IMG/VR virus record: IMGVR_UViG_3300008110_000034
Coordinates: 116,862 to 180,861 of that record
DNA: 64,000 nt
Strand: one strand, 5' to 3'
Origin: a virus
Shown here in pieces: positions 33,220 to 61,078 of this stretch (positions are counted from its first letter, which is position 1; every line of letters starts with the position of its first letter). The notes below the pieces were generated by a model, which was not told the DNA's origin, did no database searches, and saw only the letters and a program-made list of their open reading frames with translations. The position numbers and the translations under genes were made by a program.

Positions 33220-34194
33220 ATGGCAACTTTAGCTGAAATCAGAGCAAAATTAAAAGAACAAGAATCCCGCGGTAGCGGCGACAACAAAACCGGAGGCGAT
33301 AATTCAATTTATCCATTCTGGAATCTCAAAGAAGGTCAAGAAGCAACAGTACGCTTTTTACCCGATGGCAACACAGATAACACATTCTTCTGGGTAGAAC
33401 GTGCAATGATCAAACTTCCCTTTGCTGGAATCAAGGGAGATGCAGAAAGCAAAAATGTCATTGTACAAGTTCCATGCATGGAAATGTACGGACCAGGAAA
33501 TGTATGTCCTATTCTTTCAGAAGTGCGTCCTTGGTTTAAGGATCCTAATCTTGAGGATATGGGGCGTAAGTATTGGAAGAAAAAATCTTATATTTTCCAG
33601 GGCTTTGTAGTTGACGATCCAATGAAAGAAGAAAAGCCAGAAAATCTAATTCGTAGATTTATCATTGGTCCACAGATCTTCCAACTTATTCGTGCGGCAT
33701 TGATGGATCCAGACATGGACGACTTGCCAACTGACTACGTAAACGGAGTAGACTTCCGTATTGCTAAAACCAGTAAAGGTGGCTATGCTGACTACTCAAC
33801 TAGTAAGTGGGCTCGTCGTGAACGACCACTAGAAGAAGCAGAATCAGCTGCTGTTCAAGCACACGGGCTATTTAATCTTAATGATTACTTGCCTAAGAAG
33901 CCAACCGATGTTGAGCTAAAAGTAATCAAAGAAATGTTTGAAGCAAGTGTTGATGGCGAAGCATTTGACATGGAACGTTGGGGACAATATTACCGTCCAG
34001 CGGGTGTGAGCTCTAATACCGGCGATCCTAACACAGCTAAATCAGCAGCACCTAGTACTCCTCAAACTAGTCCGGACTTAGAAGATGATTTTGAAGCACC
34101 AGCAGCAAAATCTCCTAAGAAAGAAGAATCTACAACTACTTCTAGTACTAAAGCAGAAGACATTCTTGCAATGATTCGCAGCCGTCAAAAGTAA
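33220..34194 (+). CDS. 32: Single-stranded DNA-binding protein gp32
   Basis: The basic N-terminus (residues 1-20, for self-interaction), the OB-fold core ('YPFWNLKEGQEATVRFLPDG', 'FFWVERAMIKLPFAGI', 'SYIFQGFVVDDP', 'RRFIIGPQIFQLI', 'GVDFRIAKT'), and an acidic, Ser/Thr-rich C-terminus ending 'AEDILAMIRSRQK' reproduce T4 gp32. It coats single-stranded DNA and coordinates replication and recombination proteins. Compared with T4, the zinc site is incomplete: C86 and C96 are present but the next ligand is Leu99 ('CPIL' for 'CPVC'), and no His precedes C86 at the T4 spacing. GGAGA is a good ribosome site; terminators on both sides make it a single-gene unit. Confidence 0.92.
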   Translation: MATLAEIRAKLKEQESRGSGDNKTGGDNSIYPFWNLKEGQEATVRFLPDGNTDNTFFWVERAMIKLPFAGIKGDAESKNVIVQVPCMEMYGPGNVCPILSEVRPWFKDPNLEDMGRKYWKKKSYIFQGFVVDDPMKEEKPENLIRRFIIGPQIFQLIRAALMDPDMDDLPTDYVNGVDFRIAKTSKGGYADYSTSKWARRERPLEEAESAAVQAHGLFNLNDYLPKKPTDVELKVIKEMFEASVDGEAFDMERWGQYYRPAGVSSNTGDPNTAKSAAPSTPQTSPDLEDDFEAPAAKSPKKEESTTTSSTKAEDILAMIRSRQK

Positions 34195-34201
34195 TACGCA
34201 T

Positions 34202-34236
34202 AAATAGGATACGGATTTATTCGTATCCTATTTTTT
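34202..34236 (+). terminator. Rho-independent terminator after gp32
   Basis: A perfect 12-pair stem (AAATAGGATACG / CGTATCCTATTT), 8-base loop and T run. A TAAATA sequence at 34201-34206 is part of the stem, so a late promoter role there is uncertain. Confidence 0.92.
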
Positions 34237-34239
34237 ATT

Positions 34240-35004
34240 ATGACTATGGACTGGAAACTAATTGAAAAAGCGCAATGGAAATTGCGACAACACCCTTTAA
34301 CAGCAAGACAAAGTATAGGTTGTCTAGACGATCTAAAAGTCTTTATGGAAAATCATGTCTACGCTGTTTGGGATTTTATGTGTCTTACTAAACAACTACA
34401 GCATCATCTTGCGCCTAGCGGTAGCCCGTGGGTTCCAAAATACTCTGCAGAATCTCGTCGATGGGTAAATGAAATTATCCTTGGAGAAGAAAGCGATATA
34501 ACAGTTGACGGTGTAAAACACCTAAGCCATTTTGAAAGCTATATTGTAGCCATGGAAGAAATTGGCATGGACACTACTTGGATTAAACAATGGCCGAATC
34601 TGGTTGCCGAAGTTGGTTGGGAGGAAGCACTTAATCATCCAAGCGTACCTGAGCCTGCAAAATTCTTTATGTCAGAGACTAAAAGTTTTGTAGACAGTGA
34701 TAAACCTTGGATTATTTGCTCTGCATTAGCATTAGGTAGAGAAGATCTTTTACCTGAACAATTCCAATCTGTGTTAAATCAATTAGAAGTTATGGAAATA
34801 CCTAGTCCAACTTTCCGTTGGTATCTAGCAAGACATGTCGAAATTGATGGCAATGAGCACGGTCCAGCAGCTAGAAGATTACTAGTAGAACTTTGTGCCG
34901 GAGACCCTGAGCGCGAAGTTGAAGCAACAGAAGCAGCGTTACGGGCAATTAAAGCTCGAATGAAATATTGGGATATGATTATTCAACGGAATTATCTAAC
35001 GTAA
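34240..35004 (+). CDS. DUF3050 family protein, haem-oxygenase-like fold, 254 aa
   Basis: The whole sequence follows DUF3050: 'LDDLKVFMENHVYAVWDFM' (residues 29-47), 'SPWVPKYSAESRRWVNEIILGEESD' (62-86), 'LSHFESYIVAMEEIGMD' (95-111), 'ALALGREDLLPEQF' (162-175) and 'FRWYLARHVEIDGNEHGPAA' (192-211). These give candidate metal ligands H39, E83, H97, E168, H199, D203 and H207. Such all-helical proteins are placed near haem-oxygenase-like diiron oxidases, which oxidise small molecules; a reaction for DUF3050 itself is not established to my knowledge. The start has no clear ribosome site, follows the gp32 terminator, and the stop overlaps the radical SAM start (TAATG). Function in phage is unknown. 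Confidence 0.8.
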   Translation: MTMDWKLIEKAQWKLRQHPLTARQSIGCLDDLKVFMENHVYAVWDFMCLTKQLQHHLAPSGSPWVPKYSAESRRWVNEIILGEESDITVDGVKHLSHFESYIVAMEEIGMDTTWIKQWPNLVAEVGWEEALNHPSVPEPAKFFMSETKSFVDSDKPWIICSALALGREDLLPEQFQSVLNQLEVMEIPSPTFRWYLARHVEIDGNEHGPAARRLLVELCAGDPEREVEATEAALRAIKARMKYWDMIIQRNYLT

Positions 35005-36431
35005 TGGCAAATGTAATTTTTTATAGTCAACTTGGCTATCGTCCTTTTATTTGGCGACCAGTAGCTTGTTATATTCTTGCCAGATGGTTAGAAGAACATG
35101 GTTATACTTGTCAAGTAATTGAGTTCACTCACTTGTTCTCGCCTGACGAACTAATAGAACATACAAAAATGTTCATTGACAAAGATACAATGTTAATTGG
35201 CGTGAGTAGTACAATGTGGGCGACATGGAATGCCGATCTTGGACAACAAAGTCGAGTTGAAAGTATACCAGAAAATATCAAAATTGCAATTACAGAATTA
35301 AAAAAAGAATTTCCGAATATAAAAACACAGTTAGGTGGTCCTAGAGCTCATGATCATATTGTAGGCGTAGATTTATTTGACTTTGCTACTACTGATGCGT
35401 ACGGCGAAGACGGTCTACTAAAGTTGATGGATGAACTTAGCAAACAAACTGGTATAACAAAAATTAATCGCAAAAAGTTTGATATCAGTAGTCACAGATT
35501 TGTTTATAAAGATCATGACTGTATTCTACCTGGGGAAACTTTGCCAATTGAGTGGGGAAGAGGTTGTATATTTCAATGTCCCTTTTGTCGCAGTCCTAAT
35601 TTAGGTAAACGTCCCGGAGCAGACGAAAAAGATATTAGTCTTATGGTCGATGAATTCACAGAAATGTATGAACGATTCGGAACGACGAACTATTATTTTA
35701 TTGATGAAACATTTAATGCAAATAATGATAGAATTGAACGATTAGGCGAAGTATATCAAAAGTTACCTTTTAAATTAGAATTTTTAGCATACAACAGAGC
35801 AGACTTACTAGATGCACACCCGTGGACGCAAGATGTTTTACACGAGTGTGGTCAACGAGGTGCATTATTTGGAATAGAAACTTTTCATCCGGACGGTGCA
35901 AAATTAGTTAAAAAGCCGTGGAGTTCTAAAAGAGGTAAAGACTTTCTGTTACACTTACAAGATAAATGGCCGAACACACACATAGACGTAAGCTTGATTG
36001 CCGGATTACCAAATGTTCCAAAAGAATATTTGTATGAAACTGCCGACTGGTTATTAACTACAAAGTTAGGATTCTTTTGGTTCATGACATTACAGATGGT
36101 AGAAAATGAAAAACAAGGAGTATGGGAATTAAGCGCAGAAAAACAAGGAATAACCTGGCCAAGCAAGAAATACCCACTGTATTGGGAATGGGGAGATATG
36201 AGTTTTATTAAAGCTTATAACTTAGCCAGCGAATTAAACCGTTATGTAAAAACACAATCACGATGGGCTATGTGGGGACTAGGTCCTTTAAAAACTATTG
36301 GCTTAGATTTAATGAATTGTGTAAACAAAAGCAGTGCTGAAATTTTTGCACAAACAGGCGATATGTACGATCATGAAGATAGACTTTTTGAGATGTACAA
36401 AGAAAAACTTAAAAAAATTGCAGGCAGATAA
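35004..36431 (+). CDS. Radical SAM protein with N-terminal B12-binding-like domain, 475 aa
   Basis: The radical SAM cluster motif CxxxCxxC is at C188, C192 and C195 ('GRGCIFQCPFCRSPNLG'), followed by 'YYFIDETFNANNDRIERLG' and 'ALFGIETFHPDGAKLVKK', typical beta-strands of a radical SAM barrel. Residues 1-150 look like the Rossmann-type cobalamin-binding domain found in the B12-dependent subfamily ('YSQLGYRPFIWRPVACYILARWLEEHGY', 'IKTQLGGPRAHD'), but the DxHxxG cobalamin ligand motif is not seen. Start ATG 35004 overlaps the DUF3050 stop, so the two are coupled; an earlier in-frame ATG (34968) lies within the upstream gene. The enzyme's substrate is unknown. Confidence 0.85.
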   Translation: MANVIFYSQLGYRPFIWRPVACYILARWLEEHGYTCQVIEFTHLFSPDELIEHTKMFIDKDTMLIGVSSTMWATWNADLGQQSRVESIPENIKIAITELKKEFPNIKTQLGGPRAHDHIVGVDLFDFATTDAYGEDGLLKLMDELSKQTGITKINRKKFDISSHRFVYKDHDCILPGETLPIEWGRGCIFQCPFCRSPNLGKRPGADEKDISLMVDEFTEMYERFGTTNYYFIDETFNANNDRIERLGEVYQKLPFKLEFLAYNRADLLDAHPWTQDVLHECGQRGALFGIETFHPDGAKLVKKPWSSKRGKDFLLHLQDKWPNTHIDVSLIAGLPNVPKEYLYETADWLLTTKLGFFWFMTLQMVENEKQGVWELSAEKQGITWPSKKYPLYWEWGDMSFIKAYNLASELNRYVKTQSRWAMWGLGPLKTIGLDLMNCVNKSSAEIFAQTGDMYDHEDRLFEMYKEKLKKIAGR

Positions 36432-36493: not shown

Positions 36494-37552
36494 ATGACAA
36501 AGGCATTCGATTTATCAAAATTTCGTAAAAGCATTACTAAATCTATTGACGGTATATCCGTTGGATTTCAAGATCCTACAGATTGGATCAGCACTAACAA
36601 CTATGCACTCAACTATCTTATCAGCGGAGACTTTAGCAAAGGTATTCCGATGGGGAAAGTTACAGTGTTTGCTGGAGAATCAGGCGCAGGTAAAAGTTTT
36701 ATCTGTTCAGGGAATCTCGTAAAAAATGCACAAGAACAAGGTATCTATGTCATTCTAATTGACACAGAAAATGCATTAGATGAAGCATGGCTACATGCAC
36801 TAGGCGTTGATACTAGCGAAGACAAATTACTTAAATTAAACATGGCAATGATCGACGATGTTGCTAAGATGATTTCTGAATTTGTTAAAGAATACAAAAA
36901 TTTACCAGAAGAAAACAGACCCAAAGTCCTATTTGTATTAGACAGCCTTGGTATGTTACTCACACCTACAGATGTTAATCAATTTGACGCTGGCGACCTT
37001 AAAGGTGATATGGGTCGTAAACCTAAAGCACTTACAGCACTGGTTCGTAATTGTGTAAACATGTTTGGAAGTTTAAACATTGGATTGGTTTGTACAAATC
37101 ACACATATGCAAGTCAGGACATGTTTGATCCTGATGACAAGATCTCAGGCGGACAAGGATTCATTTATGCAAGTAGTATCGTAGTTGCCATGAAGAAATT
37201 AAAATTAAAAGAAGACGAAGATGGCAACAAGATTAGCGAAGTGAAAGGTATTCGTGCTGCATGTAAGATCATGAAGACACGCTACGCTAAACCTTTTGAA
37301 AGTGTACAAGTTAAAATTCCTTATGAAACTGGTATGAATCCTTATAGTGGATTAGTTGATTTGTTTGAAGGAAAATCATTGTTACTAAAAGACGGTAATC
37401 GACTAGCGTTTACTACAAATGACGGTGAAATTGTTAAATATTATCGCAAAGAATGGGAACGTAACGAAGACGGGTGTCTTGATACAGTTATGAAAGAATA
37501 TAAAATTAACCCACATAGAATAAAAAATAGTGAGATCGTTGAGGAGACTTAA
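36494..37552 (+). CDS. uvsX: RecA-like recombinase UvsX
   Basis: Walker A 'GESGAGKS' at residues 61-68, Walker B 'VLFVLDSLGML' at about 143-153, and the loop region 'GDLKGDMGRKPKALTALVRNCVN', 'LVCTNHTYASQDMFDPDDKISGGQGFIYASSIVV' are the signature of T4-type UvsX. It forms filaments on single-stranded DNA and drives strand exchange and recombination-dependent replication. Length 352 residues versus 391 in T4. It is preceded by a sigma70-type promoter and followed after 3 bases by a small acidic gene and then uvsY, its mediator, so the recombination genes form one unit. Confidence 0.95.
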   Translation: MTKAFDLSKFRKSITKSIDGISVGFQDPTDWISTNNYALNYLISGDFSKGIPMGKVTVFAGESGAGKSFICSGNLVKNAQEQGIYVILIDTENALDEAWLHALGVDTSEDKLLKLNMAMIDDVAKMISEFVKEYKNLPEENRPKVLFVLDSLGMLLTPTDVNQFDAGDLKGDMGRKPKALTALVRNCVNMFGSLNIGLVCTNHTYASQDMFDPDDKISGGQGFIYASSIVVAMKKLKLKEDEDGNKISEVKGIRAACKIMKTRYAKPFESVQVKIPYETGMNPYSGLVDLFEGKSLLLKDGNRLAFTTNDGEIVKYYRKEWERNEDGCLDTVMKEYKINPHRIKNSEIVEET

Positions 37553-37794: not shown

Positions 37795-38250
37795 ATGACT
37801 TGGTACTCAAAAATATCTAAAGATATATCCTACATACCCGATGCTGTCGAGTATTATAACAACGAGCTTAACGATGCCAGGATAGAAGTAAAAATTTCTG
37901 GTAATATTGAAAGAGCTAGTGCAAACATGCCTGGAATTGTAGAACATAGATTTGGTCAGCTTCAAGAAATTGAAGCAATTCTTGAGTATTTAAATATCGA
38001 GTTGCGTAGATTAAGAAGTCAACATTTTCGAAAATATCTTGAAAACTATCAACGTGCTCTTACTAGCAGAGATGTTGAAAAATATGTAGAAGGTGAGGCA
38101 GATGTAGTTGATTTTGAAAAAATTATCAATGAGTTTGCCTTACTTCGAAATAAATGGCTAGCAATAACTAAAGCTCTTGATCAGAAACAATGGCAGCTTA
38201 CTAACATAGTAAAACTAAGGGTTGCCGGCATGGAAGATGCTACCTTGTGA
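37795..38250 (+). CDS. uvsY: Recombination mediator UvsY
   Basis: The pattern 'YYNNELNDARIEVKISGNIERASANMPGIVEHRFGQLQEIEAILEYLNIELRRLRSQHFRKYLENYQRALTSRDVEKYV' matches UvsY in marine T4-like phages: a coiled-coil body, a charged 'LRSQHFRKYLE' region and the C-terminal 'LLRNKWLAITKALDQKQWQLTNIVKLR' helix. UvsY loads UvsX onto gp32-covered DNA. At 151 residues it is close to T4's 137. It follows uvsX and the small acidic gene directly. The 3' end overlaps the convergent glycan gene by 36 bases. Confidence 0.88.
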   Translation: MTWYSKISKDISYIPDAVEYYNNELNDARIEVKISGNIERASANMPGIVEHRFGQLQEIEAILEYLNIELRRLRSQHFRKYLENYQRALTSRDVEKYVEGEADVVDFEKIINEFALLRNKWLAITKALDQKQWQLTNIVKLRVAGMEDATL

Positions 38251-39212: not shown

Positions 39213-39977
39213 ATGAAAAGAATTACATTAGCTACAGGAGGGTTTGATCCTCTACATTCCGGCCACATAAAATATCTTGAAGCTGCCTGTGAGTTTGGCG
39301 ACATGTTAGTAGTTGGCTTAAATTCTGATGCTTGGCTTACTAGAAAAAAAGGTACACCTTTTATGCCTTTTGAAGAAAGACAAGCAGTTGTATCAGGGCT
39401 TTTTGCCGTAGATTACACTATAGAGTTTGACGACACTGACGGTAGTGCAAAAGATGCCATCTTAAAACTTAGACAACAATTTCCAGAAGATAAAATTATT
39501 TTTGTCAATGGCGGAGATCGAACATTGTCTAATATTCCAGAAATGGATATTATTGACGATAATCTAGAATTTCAATTTGGTGTTGGCGGAGATAATAAAA
39601 AAAATTCAAGCAGTTGGATATTACAAGAGTGGAAGTCCCCAAAAACAAAACGTCCATGGGGGTACTATCGAGTTCTTCATGAAAGCGGCCAAGAAGTTAA
39701 GGTTAAAGAATTAACAGTTGAGCCTGGACAATCATTAAGTATGCAACGTCATGAAAATAGAGCAGAACATTGGTTTATTATAGAGGGCACTGCTGAAGTA
39801 TACACTGTAAATAGAAGTTCAGATTATGAATTTTTAGGAGTGTATCATAAGCATCAAAGTTTGCACATAAACACATCTCAATGGCATCAATTATGTAATC
39901 CATCAAATGAGCCTTTGAAAATTGTTGAAATACAGTACGGTAGTATCTGTACTGAGGAAGATATAGAAAGAAAATGA
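39213..39977 (+). CDS. Nucleotidyltransferase-cupin fusion (phosphomannose isomerase type II domain), 254 aa
   Basis: Residues 1-130 are a cytidylyltransferase-fold domain: 'GGFDPLHSGHIKYLEAA' with the HxGH-type H15-S-G-H18, and later 'FVNGGDR', similar to the nucleotidyl half of HldE/RfaE and related activators of sugar phosphates. Residues 143-250 are a cupin of the ManC/phosphomannose isomerase type II kind: 'RPWGYYRVL', 'VKELTVEPGQSLSMQRHENRAEHWFIIEGTAEV', with ligands H180, H186 and H225. The two parts activate or isomerise phosphorylated sugars; this combination suggests one protein performing two steps. It opens the glycan run, overlapping the next gene by ATGA. Confidence 0.75.
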   Translation: MKRITLATGGFDPLHSGHIKYLEAACEFGDMLVVGLNSDAWLTRKKGTPFMPFEERQAVVSGLFAVDYTIEFDDTDGSAKDAILKLRQQFPEDKIIFVNGGDRTLSNIPEMDIIDDNLEFQFGVGGDNKKNSSSWILQEWKSPKTKRPWGYYRVLHESGQEVKVKELTVEPGQSLSMQRHENRAEHWFIIEGTAEVYTVNRSSDYEFLGVYHKHQSLHINTSQWHQLCNPSNEPLKIVEIQYGSICTEEDIERK

Positions 39978-48899: not shown

Positions 48900-49406
48900 A
48901 TGCAAATACTAACAATTAATGATGAAGCTTACGACCTTAACAATCTTCCGGATGAAGTAGATGACAATATGAGATTCGCTGTTTTAGATAACAGTAATCC
49001 CTCAGATCCAGATTTCTTTTTTATACCTTTAATTTTTTTAGAAAGTTTTAATAGTCCAGCAATGGTATTAAAAATTAACAATAAAGAAATTGCTATGCCT
49101 ATAGATTGGTCAATAGTAGTAGGAGATAGTCAAAGCGGATGTGACTTAGAAGTATTACCACTTACTAGTCTTAATGATCGAGGATTTGAGGCATTCTGCT
49201 TCAATCCGTTAAGTAGTTTTAAAATGGATTTTTATAAAATAGAAATTGTAAATTTTTATAATGATGTAAAATGGTATTTTCCTAAGATGAAATCTGGACA
49301 ACTACTAGCTACGCCAATAGATGGTGGTAAGGGACCACAATGTGTCTACTTTGTGAAAGAAATTAGTAGACAAAGTGAATTAATTCAACTTGATAAAATA
49401 TTATGA
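48900..49406 (+). CDS. Conserved T4-like protein of unknown function, 168 aa
   Basis: A 168-residue protein of mainly beta-strand character with a central 'IDWSIVVGDSQSGCDLEVLPLTSLNDRGFEAFCFNPLSSF' and C-terminal 'WYFPKMKSGQLLATPIDGGKGPQCVYFVKE'. Acidic. No catalytic motif or membrane segment is recognised. Its position immediately after uvsW (1-base gap) and ATGA overlap with the next gene place it in a replication/recombination operon. From memory, a similar phrase occurs in cyanophage proteins near clamp-loader genes, but I cannot assign a function. A replisome accessory role is inferred only from position. Confidence 0.55.
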   Translation: MQILTINDEAYDLNNLPDEVDDNMRFAVLDNSNPSDPDFFFIPLIFLESFNSPAMVLKINNKEIAMPIDWSIVVGDSQSGCDLEVLPLTSLNDRGFEAFCFNPLSSFKMDFYKIEIVNFYNDVKWYFPKMKSGQLLATPIDGGKGPQCVYFVKEISRQSELIQLDKIL

Positions 49407-49624
49407 CTAAAATTTATGAAAGTCCAGATGGCGGTAAAACTGTCTATCAAAGAAATTTTGGAAACTTAAAAAGAGATCAAATTAAAAGTGACGGCGAAAT
49501 TGATTTGCAGGACCATATATTATGGAATGAAATTAGATACGCTGCGAAGACCAATCCTACTTTACAAAGAGCCTGTGATCGTGTTAAACTTATGTACAGA
49601 CTTACAGTGGATGATCCAAAATGA
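49403..49624 (+). CDS. Conserved small protein, 73 aa
   Basis: A 73-residue mixed-charge protein beginning 'TKIYESPDGGKTVYQRNFG' with a C-terminal helix 'LWNEIRYAAKTNPTLQRACDRVKLMYRL'. Similar small proteins occur next to gp62 in marine T4-like phages, without known function to me. It overlaps its upstream and downstream neighbours by 4 bases each, which supports a real, cotranslated gene. No DNA-binding or catalytic motif is visible. Confidence is for it being a gene; the role is unknown. Confidence 0.6.
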   Translation: MTKIYESPDGGKTVYQRNFGNLKRDQIKSDGEIDLQDHILWNEIRYAAKTNPTLQRACDRVKLMYRLTVDDPK

Positions 49625-50097
49625 GTGAAAAAATTGAGTTGAAAGAAAAATTAGCAGCAGTTGATCTTTATGCTACAGATCTTTGGGATAGCTTAACTGA
49701 CGAACAGAAAAAATCTCTTAAGGGCGAGTTTTTTCTTTTGAATAGATATGTTAGTAATGTAAAATCAAATAATCGAAATCATCAAGAACATTTCGTACTA
49801 ACTGTTAATGAATATTTTAATAAGCATTGGAATACCTTACAAAAACATCCTAAACTCTTATGGAGACTGTTATGTATGTGCAGTCTAAAAGACAGTAAAG
49901 TTCATTATCATGAATGGATCGGAAATAAAAAGAAAACTGGAAGTAATAAGAAAATTAAATTTTTAGAAAAACTATATCCTAGTAAAAAACAAGATGAACT
50001 TGAATTATTATCGCAATTAATGTCCGATTCAGATTGCAAAAAACTTGCAGAACAACACGGATACGAAGATTCTGTAATTAAGCAACTGTTTAAATAA
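49621..50097 (+). CDS. 62: Clamp loader small subunit gp62
   Basis: The alpha-helical layout 'ATDLWDSLTDEQKKSLKGEFFLLNRYVSNVKSNNRNHQEHFVLTVNEYFNKHWNTLQKHPKLLWRLLCMCSL' and the C-terminal 'FLEKLYPSKKQDELELLSQLMSDSDCKKLAEQHGYE' fit the gp62 clamp loader subunit of cyanophage-like T4 relatives: short, without a P-loop, paired with the ATPase gp44. The gp44-gp62 complex loads the sliding clamp gp45; neither is in this window. 158 residues is a little shorter than T4's 187. It sits with the small conserved gene upstream and a zinc-finger protein downstream. Confidence 0.75.
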   Translation: MSEKIELKEKLAAVDLYATDLWDSLTDEQKKSLKGEFFLLNRYVSNVKSNNRNHQEHFVLTVNEYFNKHWNTLQKHPKLLWRLLCMCSLKDSKVHYHEWIGNKKKTGSNKKIKFLEKLYPSKKQDELELLSQLMSDSDCKKLAEQHGYEDSVIKQLFK

Positions 50098-50098
50098 T

Positions 50099-50791
50099 AT
50101 GTTCGAAGAATTAATCAACATGTATACTTGCCAGTATTGTAATCATAAATTTACTAAAGAAAAGACCCTGGCCGTACATGTATGTGAACAAAAGAGACGT
50201 CATCTTGCAGTAGCCGAAAAACATGTACAGATGGGATATTTGACCTTTGTAAGGTTTTATCAAATAACACAAAAAAAATCAGGAAATAAAACATACGACG
50301 AGTTTGCACGTAGTCCCTACTATAATGCGTTTATAAAATTTGGTAGTTTTGTAAGTAATGTAAATCCACTGTACCCTGAAAAATTCATAGACTATGTAAT
50401 AACTAGCGGCGTTAAACTAGATCACTGGTGCAGAGACGAATTATACGAACAATATGTAGTAAATCTTATAAAAACAGAGTCTGTTGAGACTGCTTTGGAA
50501 AGATCTATTAAATACATGACAGCCTGGGCTAACGAAAACAGCTCAGTTTGGAATCATTATTTTAACTACGTGAATATCAATAAGGCTATGTTTGATTTGA
50601 AAGACGGAAAGATTAGCCCCTGGCTAATATTACAATCTAAAAGCGGTAGAGATATGCTGGCAAAATTTAATGATGAGCAACTAACTTATGTCAACGCAAT
50701 TATTAACCCGGAGTTTTGGGTTAATAAATTCAAAAGAAATTCAAGCGATGTTCAATTCGTAAAAACACTTATCGAGGAGTCCCAACTATGA
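50099..50791 (+). CDS. C2H2 zinc-finger protein of unknown function, 230 aa
   Basis: An N-terminal single zinc finger, 'YTCQYCNHKFTKEKTLAVHVC' then 'H' after six residues (C11, C14, H27 and C29/H36), is followed by a long helical domain with 'SVWNHYFNYVNINKAMFDLKDGKISPWLILQSKSGRDMLAKF'. The finger suggests nucleic acid binding; the rest is not recognised. It could be a replication or late-transcription accessory protein. It lies directly downstream of gp62 and overlaps the following small gene by 4 bases. An alternate in-frame Met at residue 8 starts at 50120 and is less likely as a start because it leaves no overlap with an upstream ribosome site. Confidence 0.65.
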   Translation: MFEELINMYTCQYCNHKFTKEKTLAVHVCEQKRRHLAVAEKHVQMGYLTFVRFYQITQKKSGNKTYDEFARSPYYNAFIKFGSFVSNVNPLYPEKFIDYVITSGVKLDHWCRDELYEQYVVNLIKTESVETALERSIKYMTAWANENSSVWNHYFNYVNINKAMFDLKDGKISPWLILQSKSGRDMLAKFNDEQLTYVNAIINPEFWVNKFKRNSSDVQFVKTLIEESQL

Positions 50792-50970
50792 GCGAAATAG
50801 CAGTTACTAAAACAGTACCATTGAAAGTTGAAGTGTTGTTGTCTGAAGAGGATAACTCGGTCTATGTAAGATTTGAAGGGTTTGAAGATGGAGAAGATGC
50901 TGAAGATTATGCAGCATTTTTAACAGATACTCTCCCATTAATGTTATTTGAGTCTGAAATAATTCACTAA
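50788..50970 (+). CDS. Small acidic protein, 60 aa
   Basis: A 60-residue acidic protein with a strand-helix pattern: 'VTKTVPLKVEVLLSEEDNSVYVRFEGFEDGEDAEDYAAFLTDTLPLMLFESE'. From memory, a very similar small protein is found before the DnaE-like gene in cyanophages. The ATG overlaps the previous stop, and the last codon overlaps the next start by 1 base, so it is cotranslated. It may assist the following DnaE-like protein, but there is no direct evidence. No motif for catalysis or membrane insertion is visible. Confidence 0.6.
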   Translation: MSEIAVTKTVPLKVEVLLSEEDNSVYVRFEGFEDGEDAEDYAAFLTDTLPLMLFESEIIH

Positions 50971-51554
50971 TGCCAGATATTGACATTGACTTTGCAGATA
51001 GAGATCTTGCTCTTTCTTATTTTGAACATATTGCATCTTCAATAAAAGAAAAAGATCATACTTTAAAAAAGCATAACACCGGTATATATTGTACTTCTAT
51101 TCCGTACAATCCTGTAACGAGAATATCTACGATTGAGTATAAAGAAGCTGAAGATCGAGGATATTTTAAAATTGATTTTTTAAATGTTGGTATCTATAAA
51201 GATATTAAAAATGAAGAGCATCTTAATAAATTGATGGAAACTGAGCCTGTATGGGAACTCCTAGAACAGGACGATTTTACAGATTTATTGTTTCATGTAA
51301 ACGGTCACGGAGATATTCTAAGAGCAATGAAACCTAGCTCAATAGAACAATTGGCCGCAGTGTTAGCAATCATTAGACCGGCTAAGAGATATCTTATTGG
51401 AAAAGATTGGAATACTGTTATGAGTGAAGTTTGGATAAAACCGTCAACTAACGATTATTATTTTAAAAAGAGTCATGCAATATCTTATGCAATGGCAGTT
51501 GTAGTACATATGAATTTAATCTGTGAAAGCATTTATAATAACCCTCAAGAATAA
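50970..51554 (+). CDS. Miniature DnaE/C-family polymerase-like protein, 194 aa
   Basis: The N-terminus 'MPDIDIDFADRD' matches the catalytic 'PDFDVDF' of the bacterial DNA polymerase III alpha palm (E. coli D401 and D403); 'GYFKIDFLNVGIYKDI' around D69 matches 'VKFDFLGLRTLTII' with D555; 'PVWELLEQDDFTDLLFHV' (residues 93-110) then 'AMKPSSIEQLAAVLAIIRPAKRY' (119-141) and 'KKSHAISYAMAVVVH' (166-180) match in the same order. All three catalytic Asp are kept, but the protein has only 194 residues, against about 1160 in DnaE, with the PHP, thumb, fingers-insert, and clamp-binding parts missing. It lies among replication genes. Catalysis, structural reuse, or inhibition are all possible. Confidence 0.7.
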   Translation: MPDIDIDFADRDLALSYFEHIASSIKEKDHTLKKHNTGIYCTSIPYNPVTRISTIEYKEAEDRGYFKIDFLNVGIYKDIKNEEHLNKLMETEPVWELLEQDDFTDLLFHVNGHGDILRAMKPSSIEQLAAVLAIIRPAKRYLIGKDWNTVMSEVWIKPSTNDYYFKKSHAISYAMAVVVHMNLICESIYNNPQE

Positions 51555-52095
51555 TTCTAATGCCTTAAGACAATTAGATAATTGTCAACGTACTGCAAAG
51601 CAGTGGGCATGGGATGTTGAAGTATTTTGGGCAATCGACGGCAAATTCTTATCGCCTAGTGATTTCCAAAAAGAAAATTTATCATTAAATCCAAATACAA
51701 AAATTTATCGCCGACCAGGTGCCCAAGGATGTTTTATGAGTCATTGGGAATTATGGAAACATTGTGTTAAAATAAATCAACCTATAATAATTTTAGAATC
51801 TGATGCACACATTATAGGAAAACTACCTAGTATTGATTTTTCTGAGGGGTTAGTAAAACTTCACGAAGATAAAGATACAAAATACAGCGATGTAACTGGA
51901 AAATGGAGTAAAGGAGCTCATGCTTACGCACTTACTCCGGATCATGCAAACTTATTAATTTCTGGTACACGGGCTACAGAAGTTAAGCCTGCAGACAAGG
52001 CTATTGGTTCTAACTTTGTTAGCTGGAGATACTTAAATACCCCTATTGTGACACTAAAAAAACTTGGCGCAAGTACGACTTCTAAAGTAAAATAA
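51523..52095 (+). CDS. GT25-like glycosyltransferase, 190 aa
   Basis: The protein starts 'MKAFIITLKNNSNALRQLDNC' with a GTG codon at 51523, a common opening for GT25; it overlaps the DnaE-like gene by 32 bases. 'GAQGCFMSHWELWKHCVKINQPIIILESDAHIIG' matches the GT25 core, except that the E-D-D of the paralogue at 45012 is replaced by 'E-S-D-A' (residues near 94-97), so the metal site is altered. 'GKWSKGAHAYALTPDHANLLI' follows the family. It is shorter than the paralogue (190 versus 231). Whether it is still active is uncertain. It lies in a replication gene region away from the glycan island. Confidence 0.7.
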   Translation: MKAFIITLKNNSNALRQLDNCQRTAKQWAWDVEVFWAIDGKFLSPSDFQKENLSLNPNTKIYRRPGAQGCFMSHWELWKHCVKINQPIIILESDAHIIGKLPSIDFSEGLVKLHEDKDTKYSDVTGKWSKGAHAYALTPDHANLLISGTRATEVKPADKAIGSNFVSWRYLNTPIVTLKKLGASTTSKVK

Positions 52096-52467
52096 TTACT
52101 TTTTTCGAACAAGCTGAACACTTTTTCTTTTTATTCTTTTAAATGATAAGTTTAAAAGATTAACTACTGGGCCTAACACCACACGTACATCTTTGCTGTT
52201 AAACGTTTTAATGGCATGTTTAAACGGATCCATTTCTTCTTTTAAAAAGATGTTTATAGGAATCTGTCTATTACTTTCCCACCACCAAATTTCGCCCATT
52301 TCTAAAAAACTAGTTCGCTCCGCAGGGGCGACGATCATCCCCAGATCGTAAAAGCTTGTTACGTACTGATCTTGGTTAATAATGATACCAATATACTCGT
52401 TTTCCCCGTAGTTTAGGACACTAATAAAAGGTAAATTTTTCTCTATGTTTTCTCTTAATTTTACCAT
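52096..52467 (-). CDS. Conserved T4-like protein of unknown function, 123 aa
   Basis: On the minus strand: 'LRENIEKNLPFISVLNYGENEYIGIIINQDQYVTSFYDLG' followed by 'EMGEIWWWESNRQIPINIFLKEEMDPFKHAIKTF' and a basic C-terminus ('NLSFKRIKRKSVQLVRKK'). Similar proteins with the 'YGENEYIGIIINQD' theme are known to me from cyanophages without assigned function. The start codon is 9 bases from the start of the divergent gene at 52477, so the upstream control region of each gene lies within the other. It is convergent and adjacent to the GT25-like gene. No enzyme motif is visible. Confidence 0.6.
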   Translation of the reverse strand: MVKLRENIEKNLPFISVLNYGENEYIGIIINQDQYVTSFYDLGMIVAPAERTSFLEMGEIWWWESNRQIPINIFLKEEMDPFKHAIKTFNSKDVRVVLGPVVNLLNLSFKRIKRKSVQLVRKK

Positions 52468-52472
52468 AAATA
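52467..52472 (+). promoter_or_regulatory. TAAATA late-promoter element, leaderless type
   Basis: TAAATA overlaps the start codon of the minus-strand gene at 52467 and stands 4 bases before the ATG at 52477, with no ribosome site. Confidence 0.5.
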
Positions 52473-52476
52473 CATC

Positions 52477-53283
52477 ATGCAGAAAATTTCAACATATTTA
52501 TATCCAAATAGGATCGATATAATTTCTTCTAACGAAGAACCTTTACCTGTGGAGTGGCGCATCGTGTATCAAAGAAATATCAAAATTTATAAAGGCGTAC
52601 ATAATAAGTTAACATTAGACGTTAAAAACGCTGATCAAAAGCGCATAGATATTGCGGATAGAGATATCAAATTTGTACTATTAGATCTACTAGGACAGGA
52701 GATTTACAGTACTAATATTGTACCTTCGCCTTCAAAAGGACTAGCAACAGTAACTATACCAGATACAGAGCTAGAACACATAACTCCACAATTTTTAAAA
52801 TTTTCAATTTACGAATTAATAGACAACGAAAAGTACTTGCTATACGGGGATACTCAATTTGATGCATCTGGGCACGTAGAATTGTATGATACTGTGCTAA
52901 TCAAAACCATAGCTCCAAAAATTATAGATAAGTTTTTAGATATCCAAGATGCTGATTATACTGTACAACGAAAAACTTTTACTAGCGAAGCTGTAGAAGC
53001 TAGTTCTGGCAACAATGTTGTTACAGAGATTGAAATACGATTAGATTTTGATTTTTTAAGTCTCAGCGCCGATGTTACAGTACAGTTTACTGAGGACGCA
53101 ATAGTTAATCACTCCACCATCTGGAGAGATGTAGAAACCTTTCCCGTTGATGTAAGTACAGTTGGTTTATCAAAAATCTACAGCGGTTCTGATTATTCAA
53201 ACAATGTTAATTGGGTAAGAGTTAAGTATCTTCGAGACACAAATAACACCGGATCAATTGACAAGGTAGTTGTAAGAGTGTAA
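52477..53283 (+). CDS. Uncharacterised virion-type protein, 268 aa
   Basis: The protein is strand-rich: 'VEWRIVYQRNIKIYKGVHNKLTLDVKNADQKRIDIADRDIKFVLLDLLGQEIYSTNI' at the front, 'TVQRKTFTSEAVEASSGNNVVTEIEIRLDFDFLSLSADVTVQF' and 'WVRVKYLRDTNNTGSIDKVVVRV' at the end, giving the appearance of two beta-sandwich domains, a fold frequent in T4-like structural proteins. No catalytic motif or membrane segment. It is expressed from its own late element with no ribosome site, inside an otherwise replication-oriented region, which suggests a late virion role. No name can be assigned. Confidence 0.55.
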   Translation: MQKISTYLYPNRIDIISSNEEPLPVEWRIVYQRNIKIYKGVHNKLTLDVKNADQKRIDIADRDIKFVLLDLLGQEIYSTNIVPSPSKGLATVTIPDTELEHITPQFLKFSIYELIDNEKYLLYGDTQFDASGHVELYDTVLIKTIAPKIIDKFLDIQDADYTVQRKTFTSEAVEASSGNNVVTEIEIRLDFDFLSLSADVTVQFTEDAIVNHSTIWRDVETFPVDVSTVGLSKIYSGSDYSNNVNWVRVKYLRDTNNTGSIDKVVVRV

Positions 53284-53293
53284 ACTCTACACT

Positions 53294-54286
53294 ATGAGTC
53301 TAATTATTGAGACCGTAAAAACACATTTACCGGTAAAGAAAAAATCTACACCTAGTGGTTGGACTAGTTTCAACGCAGTCTGTTGTCACCATAATGGCAA
53401 CAGCGCAGACACACGGCAACGCGGCGGAATCAATGTTGGTGAAGGAGTTAGCTACCATTGTTTTAATTGCGGATTTAAAGCTAGCTGGGTTCCGGGAAGA
53501 ACCCTATCAGTAAAGTTCAAAAAATTTCTTAAATGGTTAAATGCCCCAGACGATCTCATTACCAAATGTGTATTCGAAGCTTTAAGATTAAAAGAACAAG
53601 GTCCAGAGGCAGAAACTAGATCTTTAATTCCTACGTTTTATGATGTAGCACTACCTAAAAATGCTAGACCAATTTCTTCTTATTTAGAAGAAAGCCAAAT
53701 ACCAGATAAGTTAGTAGCTGTAATAGAGTACTTACAGTCAAGACATCTATATCTAGAAGATTACAATTTTCATTGGTGTGATGAATCGGGATTTGACGAA
53801 CGTCTAATAATTCCATATTACCTTCAAGGAAGAATAGTAGGGTGGACTGGCCGCAAAATAAAAGAAGGTAAACCTAAATATCTATCAGAACAACAACCTG
53901 GATTTGTTTTTAATTTAGATCAACAAACAGCCAATAGAAAGTGTGTAATAGTTTTAGAAGGACCAATGGATGCTATTAGTATTGGAGGAGTTGCTATTAC
54001 TGGTAGTGAGGTTAATAAGACACAGAGACTGTTGATTAATCAATTACAAAAACAAGTTATTGTAGTTCCAGATAGAGATACGTCCGGAAAAAAATTAATT
54101 GAACAAGCTGTAGATTTTGGTTGGTCAGTGAGTATGCCAGAGTGGGCCGAAGGTATCAAAGACGTTAACGATGCGATTCGGCATTACGGAAGGATATATA
54201 CACTTTGGAGCATTATTAAATCTACAGAATCAATGCCTCTGAAAATACAATTAAAGTTAAAATCTTGGTTAAGGACTGAACAATGA
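53294..54286 (+). CDS. 61: DNA primase gp61
   Basis: An N-terminal zinc-binding region with C30, C31, H32 (or H33) and C56, C59 ('VCCHH', 'CFNCG') is followed by 'SSYLEESQIPDKLVAVIEYLQSRHLYLEDYNFHWCDE', 'RLIIPYYLQGRIVGWTGRKIKEGKPKYL' and a TOPRIM domain 'VIVLEGPMDAISIGGVAITG' with 'VIVVPDRDTSGKKLI' (E223, D226, D258-type acidic residues, approximate). This is the DnaG-like primase that works with the gp41 helicase. 330 residues is close to T4's 342. It starts 10 bases after the previous stop and overlaps the following micro-gene by ATGA. Confidence 0.88.
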   Translation: MSLIIETVKTHLPVKKKSTPSGWTSFNAVCCHHNGNSADTRQRGGINVGEGVSYHCFNCGFKASWVPGRTLSVKFKKFLKWLNAPDDLITKCVFEALRLKEQGPEAETRSLIPTFYDVALPKNARPISSYLEESQIPDKLVAVIEYLQSRHLYLEDYNFHWCDESGFDERLIIPYYLQGRIVGWTGRKIKEGKPKYLSEQQPGFVFNLDQQTANRKCVIVLEGPMDAISIGGVAITGSEVNKTQRLLINQLQKQVIVVPDRDTSGKKLIEQAVDFGWSVSMPEWAEGIKDVNDAIRHYGRIYTLWSIIKSTESMPLKIQLKLKSWLRTEQ

Positions 54287-54396
54287 AAAAAATATTATAT
54301 CTATTATTAACTCCATATCATATGTGGAAAGAACACAGACGAATAAAAAATCGTATGAAAGAGATTAAAGCAAGGGATCCGTTCATTTACAAATGA
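54283..54396 (+). CDS. 37-aa basic micro-protein between primase and DUF1289
   Basis: ATG 54283 overlaps the primase stop, and the stop overlaps the next ATG, so it belongs to a tight reading-frame chain. The 37 residues read 'MKKILYLLLTPYHMWKEHRR' then 'IKNRMKEIKARDPFIYK'. A short hydrophobic start (LYLLLTPY) followed by a basic helix suggests membrane surface binding. I recall similar short proteins with an 'RDPFIYK' ending in cyanophages. Function unknown; being a gene is supported by the overlaps on both sides and the absence of a gap. Confidence 0.6.
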   Translation: MKKILYLLLTPYHMWKEHRRIKNRMKEIKARDPFIYK

Positions 54397-54545
54397 TTAA
54401 AAGTCCTTGTACTAGAGTTTGTCGTATTGACTCAAAAACTCAATACTGTGAAGGTTGTAAAAGAACTTTGAAAGAAATCTCGTCGTGGACTCAATATAGC
54501 GATGACAAAAAAAAGTTAATTTTGAAGGAAATAGAAAAAAGATGA
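54393..54545 (+). CDS. DUF1289 family protein, 50 aa
   Basis: The short sequence 'SPCTRVCRIDSKTQYCEGC' with 'KRTLKEISSWTQYSDDKK' carries the DUF1289 pattern: Cys residues at 6, 10, 19 and 22, the 'GCxRTxxEIxxW' stretch and the Ser-Asp-Asp-Lys end. The four cysteines probably bind a metal, perhaps Zn or an iron-sulfur cluster. Its function is not established. It overlaps the flanking genes by ATGA on both sides, linking the primase to the carbamoyltransferase. In bacteria, DUF1289 proteins are found with various metabolic genes. Confidence 0.75.
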   Translation: MIKSPCTRVCRIDSKTQYCEGCKRTLKEISSWTQYSDDKKKLILKEIEKR

Positions 54546-55999
54546 TTACTTGGGGTATCTCTGCAAATAGCCACGACGCTGCATTAGCAGTATTTGATAA
54601 TAATGAATTAAAATTTGCTAGTCATAGCGAAAGATTTAGTCGTGTAAAAAATGATCCGCATCTATGCGATAGACTAGTAATCCATGCTGAAGCAACTTAC
54701 GGCGAGCCTGATCGTATAGTTTGGTATGAAAAACCCCTATCAAAAACAATCAGACAGTTGTATGCAGGGCAAGGATTTAAAAATAATAATATTAAAAAAT
54801 ACTTAAAAAACTATAAAATTGATGCTCCTATAAGATATAAAAAACATCATGAAAGTCATGCTGCTGCTGGGTATTACACTAGTAATTTTGATTCCGCCAC
54901 TGTGTTAGTGATTGATGCAATAGGCGAATGGGAATGTTTGACTGTATGGAAGGGGCAAGGTAAAAATCTTTCAAAAGTTTATAGTCAACAATATCCTCAT
55001 AGTATCGGACTTTGGTATTCAGCTATGACGCAACGATTGGGACTAAAGCCAAACGAAGACGAATATATTTTAATGGGCATGGCTGCATGGGGTAATCCTA
55101 ACAGGTACTTTGATCGAATTAATAATGATTTTTTCTATGTCGATAACTCCGGATGGCCAAGGTTAAAAAGAAATCTTCATCGAGGATGTCTTGATTGGCT
55201 ACCGGACACAAGTATAGATCATTATTTTGATATAGCAGCCGGAGTTCAATCAGTATACGAATATCATCTAAAAAGAATTCTAAAACAAGTTCGGAATATA
55301 GCACCAAATGAAAATATAGTATTCATGGGAGGTTGTGCATTAAATTGTTCAGCCAATCATCTGCTTAAAGACTTTTACAAAAATGTTTGGATTATGCCGA
55401 ATCCGGGCGATGCAGGTAGTGCAATTGGTGCAGTTTTAGCTGATAAGAAAATACATATTGACTGGCCAGGGGCATTCCTTGGGTTTAATATTGAACCAAG
55501 GGCAACTAACGATCAAATAGTAGATTATTTGATTAAAAACAAACTCTGCGGCGTTGCTAGAGGTCGGGCTGAATTTGGTCCTAGAGCGTTAGGTAACAGA
55601 AGTTTAATAGCAGATCCAAGAGACAAACAAACAAAGGAATTAGTCAACGACATTAAACAACGACAGCACTTTAGACCGTTTGCCCCAATGGTGTTGGAAG
55701 AACATGCTGCCGAATATTTTGACATGCCAGTTCAATCTAGTCCATACATGCAATTTACTGCTAAATGTAAATTTCCAGATAAGTTTCCAGCTATTATACA
55801 CAAAGATGGCACTAGTAGAGTTCAAACAGTAGGTTCTGAAGCTCCGTTAGCTAGAGCTTTATTAGAAACTTGGTATAAAAAAACTGGATGTCCTATTTTG
55901 TTAAACACTAGTCTTAATATTAAAGGCGAACCAATAGTAAACGATATAGTAGACGGAATGGATTTTGAAAAGAAATATAAAGTAAAAGTGTTTAATTAA
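54542..55999 (+). CDS. Carbamoyltransferase of the NodU/CmcH family, 485 aa
   Basis: N-terminal ASKHA-like kinase part: 'WGISANSHDAALAVFDN', 'KKHHESHAAAGYYTSNFDSATVLVIDAIGEWE' (the conserved His-rich loop with H102/H106-type residues), 'EYILMGMAAWG'. The C-terminal YrdC-like part carries 'FMGGCALNCSANH', 'NPGDAGSAIGA' and 'GRAEFGPRALGNRSLIADPR', all standard in this family, then 'LLNTSLNIKGEPIV'. The family makes carbamoyladenylate from carbamoyl phosphate and ATP and transfers the carbamoyl group to an alcohol of a sugar, antibiotic or nucleoside. Length is a little under the usual 550-600. The phage acceptor is unknown. It is translationally coupled to DUF1289. Confidence 0.88.
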   Translation: MITWGISANSHDAALAVFDNNELKFASHSERFSRVKNDPHLCDRLVIHAEATYGEPDRIVWYEKPLSKTIRQLYAGQGFKNNNIKKYLKNYKIDAPIRYKKHHESHAAAGYYTSNFDSATVLVIDAIGEWECLTVWKGQGKNLSKVYSQQYPHSIGLWYSAMTQRLGLKPNEDEYILMGMAAWGNPNRYFDRINNDFFYVDNSGWPRLKRNLHRGCLDWLPDTSIDHYFDIAAGVQSVYEYHLKRILKQVRNIAPNENIVFMGGCALNCSANHLLKDFYKNVWIMPNPGDAGSAIGAVLADKKIHIDWPGAFLGFNIEPRATNDQIVDYLIKNKLCGVARGRAEFGPRALGNRSLIADPRDKQTKELVNDIKQRQHFRPFAPMVLEEHAAEYFDMPVQSSPYMQFTAKCKFPDKFPAIIHKDGTSRVQTVGSEAPLARALLETWYKKTGCPILLNTSLNIKGEPIVNDIVDGMDFEKKYKVKVFN

Positions 56000-56011
56000 A
56001 ATATATAAAAT

Positions 56012-57421
56012 ATGACAAGACAAAATTCAGATTACGGTTTTGATGTACAAAGATTGTACATTGAAATGATGTTACAAGATGCAGAAACTTTTGTAAGATG
56101 CCAGGGTATATGGAATCCAGATCTTTTTGATAAGAAACTTCAAACATCTGCAAAGTTTATCAACGACTATGTTGAAGAACATAGAGTCATGCCAACTGTG
56201 AGCATTGTAAATGCTGCTACGTCACAGGTGTTCGGGGAACACGCTAACCTAAAAGCTGAACATTATGATTGGCTAATGAATGATTTTGAAACTTTTGTAA
56301 GACACAAGAGTTTAGAAAAAGCCATACTTGAATCTGCAGACATGTTAGAAAAAGGCGAGTACGGGCCAGTTGAGGACATGATTAAAAAAGCTGTACAGAT
56401 TGGTCTTACTAAAGACATGGGTACTAATTATTTTGCAGACCCTAGGTCTAGATTAATGAAAATTAAAGACAAAAACGGTCAGGTCAGTACAGGATGGAAA
56501 AGTGTTGATGATAAACTGTTTGGAGGTATGAACAGAGGGGAACTAAACATTTTTGCAGCAGCCAGCGGAGGCGGAAAGAGTTTGTTCTTAGCAAACTTAG
56601 GATGCAACTGGGCGTTAGCCGGATTAAATGTGCTATATCTTACATTAGAACTTAGCGAAGAACTAGTTTCTATGCGTATTGATTCTATGTTGACTGATGT
56701 TCCAACGAGAGAAATTTTTAAACAAATTGACGATGTTGAAATGAAAGTCAAAGTCATAGGTAAAAAGTCCGGTGCGTTACAAGTCAAATATATTCCTTCA
56801 GGAAAAAATGTCAACGACATACGGTCTTATGTTAAAGAATTTGAAATTAAAACTGACAAGAAACTAGATGTAGTTTTAGTAGATTATCTCGATTTGTTAA
56901 TGCCAATCAGTAAAAGAATTAGTGCAGAAAATCTTTTTATCAAAGACAAATATGTTTCTGAGGAACTAAGGAACTTTGCTGTAGAAAGAAATATAGTATT
57001 AGTAACTGCCGCACAGTTGAATCGTGGCGCAGTTGAAGAAGTAGAGTTTGATCACAGTCATATTTCAGGCGGACTGAGTAAGATTCAAACAGCGGATAAT
57101 GTATTCGGTATTTTTACTAGTCGTGCTATGCGTGAGCGTGGTCGATACCAAATACAACTAATGAAGACTCGTAGCAGTAGTGGTGTAGGACAAAAAATAG
57201 ACTTAGAGTTTGATGTTAATTGTCTAAGAATTAGAGATTTAGATGATGTCGAAGAATCTCAATCAACGTCTACTGGTCGCAGTATTATTGATCAAATTAA
57301 AAATAGAACCAGTACATTAACTGATGATCCTCAGTCCGGTGCGCCTATTCCTAGACCTAAAGCAACAACTGACAGCACCAAGGTTAGGCAATTATTGAAT
57401 AATCTAAATACTGAATTATGA
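56012..57421 (+). CDS. 41: Replicative DNA helicase gp41 (DnaB-like)
   Basis: A DnaB/RecA-type P-loop 'AAASGGGKS' at residues 182-190, 'VLYLTLELSEELVSMRID' with the arginine-glutamate helix, 'VLVDYLDLLMP' as the B-type strand, and 'LVTAAQLNRGAVEE' and 'IQLMKTRSSSGVGQKIDLEFD' as further motifs. The N-terminal half 'YIEMMLQDAETFVRCQGIWNPDLFD' forms the hexamer collar. The helicase unwinds the fork ahead of the polymerase and is stimulated by gp59. 469 residues is close to T4's 475. It follows the carbamoyltransferase after 12 bases and overlaps the dehydrogenase gene by ATGA. Confidence 0.93.
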   Translation: MTRQNSDYGFDVQRLYIEMMLQDAETFVRCQGIWNPDLFDKKLQTSAKFINDYVEEHRVMPTVSIVNAATSQVFGEHANLKAEHYDWLMNDFETFVRHKSLEKAILESADMLEKGEYGPVEDMIKKAVQIGLTKDMGTNYFADPRSRLMKIKDKNGQVSTGWKSVDDKLFGGMNRGELNIFAAASGGGKSLFLANLGCNWALAGLNVLYLTLELSEELVSMRIDSMLTDVPTREIFKQIDDVEMKVKVIGKKSGALQVKYIPSGKNVNDIRSYVKEFEIKTDKKLDVVLVDYLDLLMPISKRISAENLFIKDKYVSEELRNFAVERNIVLVTAAQLNRGAVEEVEFDHSHISGGLSKIQTADNVFGIFTSRAMRERGRYQIQLMKTRSSSGVGQKIDLEFDVNCLRIRDLDDVEESQSTSTGRSIIDQIKNRTSTLTDDPQSGAPIPRPKATTDSTKVRQLLNNLNTEL

Positions 57422-60502: not shown

Positions 60503-61078
60503 ATGAAAATATCAATAACTGGTCATTGTGCAGGATTAGGTCAAGCACTTTATAAAAAATTAAAAGAGAAGCATCAGATAACAGGATGGGATATTCTTGA
60601 TGGTTGGGATATAAATCAAGAGTCAACTAGAGATACAATAATTAACGATCTCGATAATCAAGATATGTTTATAAATTGTGCTCACTCTTTTAGAAGTCAG
60701 ACACAGTTACTTCAACGAGCTATTGAAAAGTGGGACGGGCAAAACAAAGTCATTGTAAATATCAGCAGCACAATGAGTATAATAGATGTTAGTCTAGTTT
60801 ATAATAATATGCCAGATGATAGCTTGTATTACTTTATAGACAAACAGATGCAAAATAGAATTCACAGTATGAGGTTTGGATTAAGCAAGCCAAGAATACA
60901 GAATGTGCTTATAGATTGGTTTGATTCTAGCTACGCACGAAGTAAGGGTGTAACTAGTACTTCTCTTACGCCTGATGATGTTGCAGAACAAATTATTTCT
61001 GCTATGCCACAACTTAATCAATCGGCCTATTTAGGAATTATTTTAATTGCAGATGCAGGCGGTACAAATCATGACTGA
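60503..61078 (+). CDS. Rossmann-fold SDR-like protein, 191 aa
   Basis: 'ITGHCAGLGQALYKKLKE' is an SDR-type dinucleotide loop with Gly-x-Gly replaced by 'GHCAGLG'. 'DMFINCAHSF' replaces the 'NNAG' segment and 'NISSTMS' gives the Ser region; 'YNNMPDDSLYYFIDKQM' is near the expected Tyr-x-x-x-Lys, but spaced irregularly. Probably a shortened, divergent relative of short-chain dehydrogenases; whether it still binds a cofactor or works catalytically is unclear. It lies directly upstream of a fatty acid desaturase and overlaps it by 8 bases, suggesting shared metabolism. It has its own leaderless late promoter. Confidence 0.6.
   Translation: MKISITGHCAGLGQALYKKLKEKHQITGWDILDGWDINQESTRDTIINDLDNQDMFINCAHSFRSQTQLLQRAIEKWDGQNKVIVNISSTMSIIDVSLVYNNMPDDSLYYFIDKQMQNRIHSMRFGLSKPRIQNVLIDWFDSSYARSKGVTSTSLTPDDVAEQIISAMPQLNQSAYLGIILIADAGGTNHD

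Follow-up and report, generated by a model that had tools for sequence, protein, structure and literature searches.

Paired genes for a DUF3050 protein and a B12-type radical SAM enzyme in uncultivated phages suggest a two-metalloenzyme pathway

Gene organization of the locus

The window, meaning the whole stretch of 64 000 nucleotides that was analysed, belongs to a virus record of 180,861 bases from a T4-like phage. Two plus-strand genes lie here between the genes for the single-strand DNA-binding protein gp32 (33220–34194, plus strand; phrog_1192, E = 3e-65), the left border of the insertion site, and the recombinase uvsX (36494–37552, plus strand; phrog_97, E = 8e-69), the right border; uvsY (37795–38250, assigned by its PHROGs profile) follows uvsX. 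The first gene (34240–35004) encodes a 254-residue DUF3050 protein, which its match to PF11251, its predicted structure and its putative ligands mark as a probable HamA-like member of the haem-oxygenase-like dimetal oxidases or oxygenases (HDO). The second (35004–36431) encodes a 475-residue radical SAM enzyme of the B12 type, assigned from PF04055, its fold and the motif C188xxxC192xxC195. The mechanically assigned start of the latter reading frame is TTG 34968, and the conserved start is ATG 35004, relatives beginning with MAN[VI]I and the window protein with MANVI. Since this ATG is kept as the start in relatives, the DUF3050 stop codon and the radical SAM start codon share a single base (TAATG) at 35004. 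The pair has flanks of 45 nt on its 5′ side and 62 nt on its 3′ side, and no gene for a precursor peptide in cis fits into either.

A sequence-only reading of this DNA had described two genes joined by TAATG between gp32 and uvsX, and the reading frames, the conserved start and the PHROGs profiles bear out both points. It had also described the pair as standing alone, which holds locally but not for the phage as a whole: about 90 kb away lies a loose cluster of at least four other radical SAM genes, of which one encodes a SPASM-type domain (L139:11273–19999 and L140:1–1263, corresponding to G000:C1:55.3–65.3 kb, where G000 is the record of the window). Related contigs (L141–L146) carry rows of about four to seven radical SAM genes.

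A hairpin with a 14-bp stem (34202–34233, plus strand), recognized by scanning, folding and covariation, ends 6 nt 5′ of the DUF3050 start. Its folding energy is −16.3 kcal/mol (z = −5.97, 14 pairs), and compensatory changes preserve the stem in 11 relatives. It is likely to be a gp32 terminator or a leader hairpin. The sequence-only reading had called it a terminator; the hairpin itself is conserved, but that role is only likely, since the T-run is absent from some relatives. The motif ATAAATA at 34200–34206 (plus strand) resembles a T4-type late promoter and may serve as one here; in several relatives the corresponding position reads TATAAGTA or ATAAGTA. Plus-strand copies also stand close 5′ of gene starts at 9752, 11373, 25521, 27901, 30787, 39180, 52466, 59775 and 63919, and the motif is rarer in the window overall than expected by chance (15 versus 35); judged from its placement, it may be the late promoter, of the T4 type, that this phage uses. 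Predicted sigma-70 promoters around the pair show no excess over chance (11 versus 14.6 expected).

The DUF3050 protein

The DUF3050 protein matches PF11251 over the full domain (positions 2–233 of 233; E = 5e-71, 239 bits against a cut-off of 22.2). It also matches PHROG 34539 (E = 1e-35), in which phage DUF3050 proteins have already been clustered, annotated as of unknown function and with no link to radical SAM enzymes. Its AlphaFold model (pLDDT 86) has the haem-oxygenase-like helical fold typical of HDO enzymes, and its best Foldseek match in the PDB is HamA (9VWB; TM 0.84, 36% identity), also its strongest sequence relative there; CADD and HrmI come next, and UndA and PqqC are further matches. 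Seven residues, H39, E83, H97, E168, H199, D203 and H207, are invariant in all 44 viral and plasmid DUF3050 representatives, and all seven positions are also present in HamA. Six of them (E83, H97, E168, H199, D203 and H207), aligned with HamA, make up the three-histidine, three-carboxylate set of HDO enzymes, the third core helix bearing the HxxxDxxxH motif. Together with H39 this invariant set fits the di-iron site predicted earlier for DUF3050, in which the ligands were equated with those of CADD (PMC4520260), and with the general HDO ligand motif (PMC13108848).

The helical fold and the E, H, E and HxxxDxxxH ligands are thus shared with the wider superfamily (CADD, UndA, SznF, HrmI and PolF; PMC13108848), whereas sequence similarity to it is near or below detection and the window protein has H39, E84 and D86 as extra invariant residues. 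Closer are HamA and MgoB (PvfA), members of the same Pfam family from the fragin–valdiazen and mgo/pvf operons. Those bacterial operons combine the gene with a nonribosomal peptide synthetase (NRPS) and an AurF-like N-oxygenase (PMC5878181; PMC3298696), whereas the phages have radical SAM enzymes instead. The family, the modelled fold and the ligand pattern argue that DUF3050 is probably a di-iron oxidase of the HDO type and the HamA family. The seven putative ligands are those proposed in the sequence-only reading, whose view of the protein as a possible di-metal oxygenase gains support from the predicted fold and from the invariance of these residues.

The radical SAM partner

The partner matches PF04055 (E = 3e-8, 34.6 bits against a cut-off of 29.5), and the cysteines (C188, C192 and C195) of the CxxxCxxC [4Fe-4S] motif noted previously, in a TIM-barrel-like core, are invariant in 19/19 partner enzymes. 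Foldseek matches of its AlphaFold model (pLDDT 86.6) are TsrM, CysS, MgmA, AprD4 and OxsB, and profile searches find AprD4 (E = 2e-13) and TsrM (E = 4e-7). With these enzymes it has in common a Rossmann-like front and the CxxxCxxC core, at 12–17% identity. The front of the protein had been read as cobalamin-binding-like. This stands as far as the fold is concerned: the domain is of the Rossmann type, as in TsrM and other B12-type radical SAM enzymes, and the fold and profile matches span the B12 domain of TsrM. The Pfam B12-binding model, however, stays below its cut-off of 32.1 (15.1 bits in the window enzyme and 25.4 bits in a homologue, L072). AprD4, which gives the best profile match, is a dehydratase rather than a methylase and is not known to use cobalamin. 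The modelled fold is that of a B12-type radical SAM enzyme, with cobalamin as a putative cofactor.

The survey of cellular genomes was thin, consisting of one pattern scan and plasmids. A scan of 84,980 cellular genomes with two short peptide patterns of the partner turned up a single weak match, in an archaeon (23%), and no close relative from which a cellular origin could be traced; distant cellular relatives could escape such a two-pattern scan.

Recurrence, types and movement of the pair

The order gp32–DUF3050–radical SAM–uvsX is present in most contigs of close relatives in IMG/VR, and DUF3050 occurs alone in a few. A wider scan gave 101 viral DUF3050 loci, 80 of which were kept; clustering at 85% identity gave 44 clusters, four of them from plasmids. 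Radical SAM and DUF3050 positions were taken across whole records, and the contigs are uncultivated assemblies. In 35/41 virus records DUF3050 has a radical SAM gene no more than 1.5 kb away. Among records that reach 30 kb or more this proximity is seen in 29/35, against 4.67 (s.d. 1.92) expected when DUF3050 is placed randomly within each record, an expectation that already allows for the number of radical SAM genes per record; since the records are not fully independent, the comparison measures an effect and is not an exact probability. The sequence-only reading had named recurrent adjacency as the check on a joint function, and the outcome is strongly positive. The coupling is far broader than one phage, and many uncultivated, largely aquatic phages carry it. 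Pairing is not obligatory: the sub-clade of L013 and near copies hold DUF3050 at the gp32/uvsX site with no radical SAM gene, and DUF3050 has no radical SAM neighbour in L035, L083, L113 and L118. No isolate phage in INPHARED matched either protein, and the BFVD viral structure library held no convincing counterpart, so no cultured system is to hand.

Two types of module were found. Type B (18 clusters) combines DUF3050 with a homologue of the window radical SAM enzyme, which lies downstream, upstream or convergent, with ends that mostly overlap (−1/−4 nt); L031 has two window-type radical SAM genes in tandem. Across 18 type B pairs the identities of the two proteins correlate (Mantel r = 0.906, reached by 0/2000 permutations). 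In type S (16 clusters, some ended by a contig edge), genes for four proteins of 585, 372, 352 and 443 residues with CxxxCxxC precede DUF3050. Pfam recognizes a radical SAM domain in the 372- and 443-residue members and in the L133 homologue of the 585-residue protein, but not in the 352-residue one; one member has a SPASM domain. The row is inverted in L089, and in L133 it is rearranged but intact, with DUF3050 inside it.

In the DUF3050 tree a single well-supported group, separate from the plasmid proteins, unites all viral proteins except that of L035, and type B arrangements imply at least two changes on well-supported branches. The L035 protein groups with a Mesorhizobium plasmid protein, outside the paired viral clade; its gene lies between genes for GTP cyclohydrolase and a queuine tRNA-ribosyltransferase (TGT/DpdA)-like protein (L035:4751–7539). 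On a Mesorhizobium plasmid, too, DUF3050 shares an operon with two radical SAM genes. A Mesorhizobium huakuii plasmid operon (L062:3561–9976) comprises two radical SAM, an alanine-racemase-like, DUF3050 and TldD-related genes, near aminotransferase, transketolase and P450 genes, an arrangement resembling an unstudied natural-product cluster.

The pair has also relocated as a unit. Four relatives (L072, L073, L074 and L079) are largely collinear with the window at 48900–57421. In L072, L074 and L079 the pair sits between relatives of window genes up to 52477 and the primase gene at 53294, and in L073 the primase side only is seen. The corresponding place in the window, directly before the primase gene, is an empty site of 10 bases (53284–53293, plus strand). 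Conversely, gp32 directly adjoins uvsX in G024, with no pair, and two unrelated small genes lie between them in G023. Related phages thus have the pair at different places, each of which also occurs empty, so the pair moves as one piece.

Discussion

The pair suggests that viruses run an undescribed pathway of two metalloenzymes. We propose that the two genes form a mobile cassette of phage cargo. In this pathway DUF3050 would be an HDO-type oxidase or oxygenase of the HamA family, dependent on O2 and with a di-iron (or Fe/Mn) centre, and its partner a B12-type radical SAM enzyme that would functionalize an unactivated carbon; should the partner bind cobalamin, methylation is the likeliest reaction. 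During infection both would act in sequence on one substrate, for which a peptide or a small molecule derived from an amino acid is the likeliest candidate. We regard this proposal as moderately probable. A broader reading, in which a virus-specific mobile biosynthetic system of uncultivated phages combines one O2-using HDO with interchangeable radical SAM sets, either one or two B12-type enzymes or an array of four genes, to yield a new amino-acid- or peptide-derived product during infection, is offered tentatively. Family, fold, invariant catalytic residues, gene overlap, recurrent adjacency, co-divergence and movement as a unit come from computation; the order of reactions, the class of substrate, the use of cobalamin and a benefit to the phage are what we infer.

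The sequence-only reading had taken the two genes for a functional pair, which adjacency in many lineages, three arrangements, co-divergence and relocation as a unit strongly support. Its suggestion of a small biosynthetic or cofactor-altering pathway is plausible, because the closest studied relatives of DUF3050 lie in operons for amino-acid-derived natural products, ham and mgo (PMC5878181; PMC3298696). Against a joint pathway stand the loci where DUF3050 has no radical SAM neighbour, the small number of enzymes, two, with no carrier protein, ligase or transporter nearby, and the fact that co-divergence is also expected from plain co-inheritance. A cluster figure for Nit1C of an Antarctic cyanobacterium has DUF3050 together with the radical SAM gene nitD (PMC9716671). 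We found no account of the DUF3050–radical SAM combination in the literature, nor a description of the pair in a phage; the sequence-only reading had likewise pointed to no known role there.

The enzymes could instead modify a phage or host protein, such as a tail-fibre part, or a peptide encoded in trans, in the manner of RiPPs, rather than a free metabolite. Type S modules stand immediately 5′ of genes for tail-fibre assembly and for the virion (L086), and among their products are radical SAM enzymes of the peptide-modifying kind, including the SPASM protein, and the structural relatives of the window partner include the protein methylase MgmA. The short flanks of the window pair, however, leave no space for a precursor gene in cis, and in the window clade the pair sits among replication genes; neighbouring genes also differ from site to site, and we consider this explanation somewhat unlikely. 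Formation of an N–N bond of the HamA type (nitroso-hydroxylamine or diazeniumdiolate), by which a phage would make or alter a metallophore or a signal, is suggested by the closeness to HamA, as HamA and/or HamE have been proposed as the N–N bond enzymes for fragin and valdiazen (PMC11705231). The HamA reaction is itself unproven (PMC11705231; PMC11659414), HamA being dispensable for the hydroxylamine intermediates (PMC11659414), and HDO enzymes with much the same ligands catalyse widely differing reactions (PMC13108848). Neither an NRPS gene nor one for an AurF-like N-oxygenase or a HamE-like protein was found next to the pair, which is not part of a ham, mgo or pvf operon, the DUF3050 gene having gp32, the radical SAM gene and uvsX as neighbours in the window clade. 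We judge this chemistry improbable.

That the genes are neutral cargo, travelling together with no joint function because junctions such as gp32/uvsX act as hot spots for insertion, would fit the other genes at this junction in G023 and the many radical SAM genes of these phages. Radical SAM cassettes are likewise known as variable cargo in hypervariable regions of T4-like aquatic phages, the pelagimyophages, in an excerpt of PMC7029224 that mentions no DUF3050 partner. Yet the adjacency outlasts changes of order, orientation and site, involves two unlike types of radical SAM partner and exceeds an expectation already corrected for radical SAM gene number (29 versus 4.7), and we think neutral carriage decidedly improbable. 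A part in DNA base modification, with 7-deazaguanine or another hypermodified base as the product, might be read from the DNA-replication genes around the window pair and from the GTP cyclohydrolase and TGT/DpdA-like neighbours in L035. The L035 protein, however, belongs with the plasmid protein and not with the paired clade, Pfam TGT is found in 0/34 records, and neither DpdA/TGT nor QueC was found in the record of the window, which is possibly incomplete. These results give 7-deazaguanine modification no support, and we regard base modification in general as very improbable.

What appears to be new here is the combination; the HDO family, radical SAM enzymes and metabolic cargo of phages were already known. 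For DUF3050 a structure (HamA) and biosynthetic contexts are known, without a proven reaction, and the phages strip this context down to a single radical SAM partner or a few, a minimal system in which to find the reaction. The pathway would show viruses moving metalloenzyme chemistry of the natural-product type as a unit, beyond the auxiliary genes of photosynthesis and nucleotide metabolism. The phages that harbour the module are ones that isolate collections do not represent.

Other gene content

The window carries further metabolic cargo, namely a cytidylyltransferase–cupin fusion (39213–39977), a Nol-like carbamoyltransferase (54542–55999) and a fatty-acid-desaturase-like gene (61047–61802). 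A freshwater-2 RNA (Rfam; 1093–1164) lies immediately 5′ of a structural gene. Elsewhere (L044:6001–9598, L047:6001–9595, L046 and L048) the window-type radical SAM gene occurs in a second copy, followed by a second radical SAM gene of the B12 type and a BPL_N/glutamine-amidotransferase-like gene. A ferredoxin-dependent bilin reductase gene lies near this locus, together with a haem oxygenase gene in L047, and one 364-kb phage (G004) has both a locus of the L044 type and the DUF3050 pair.
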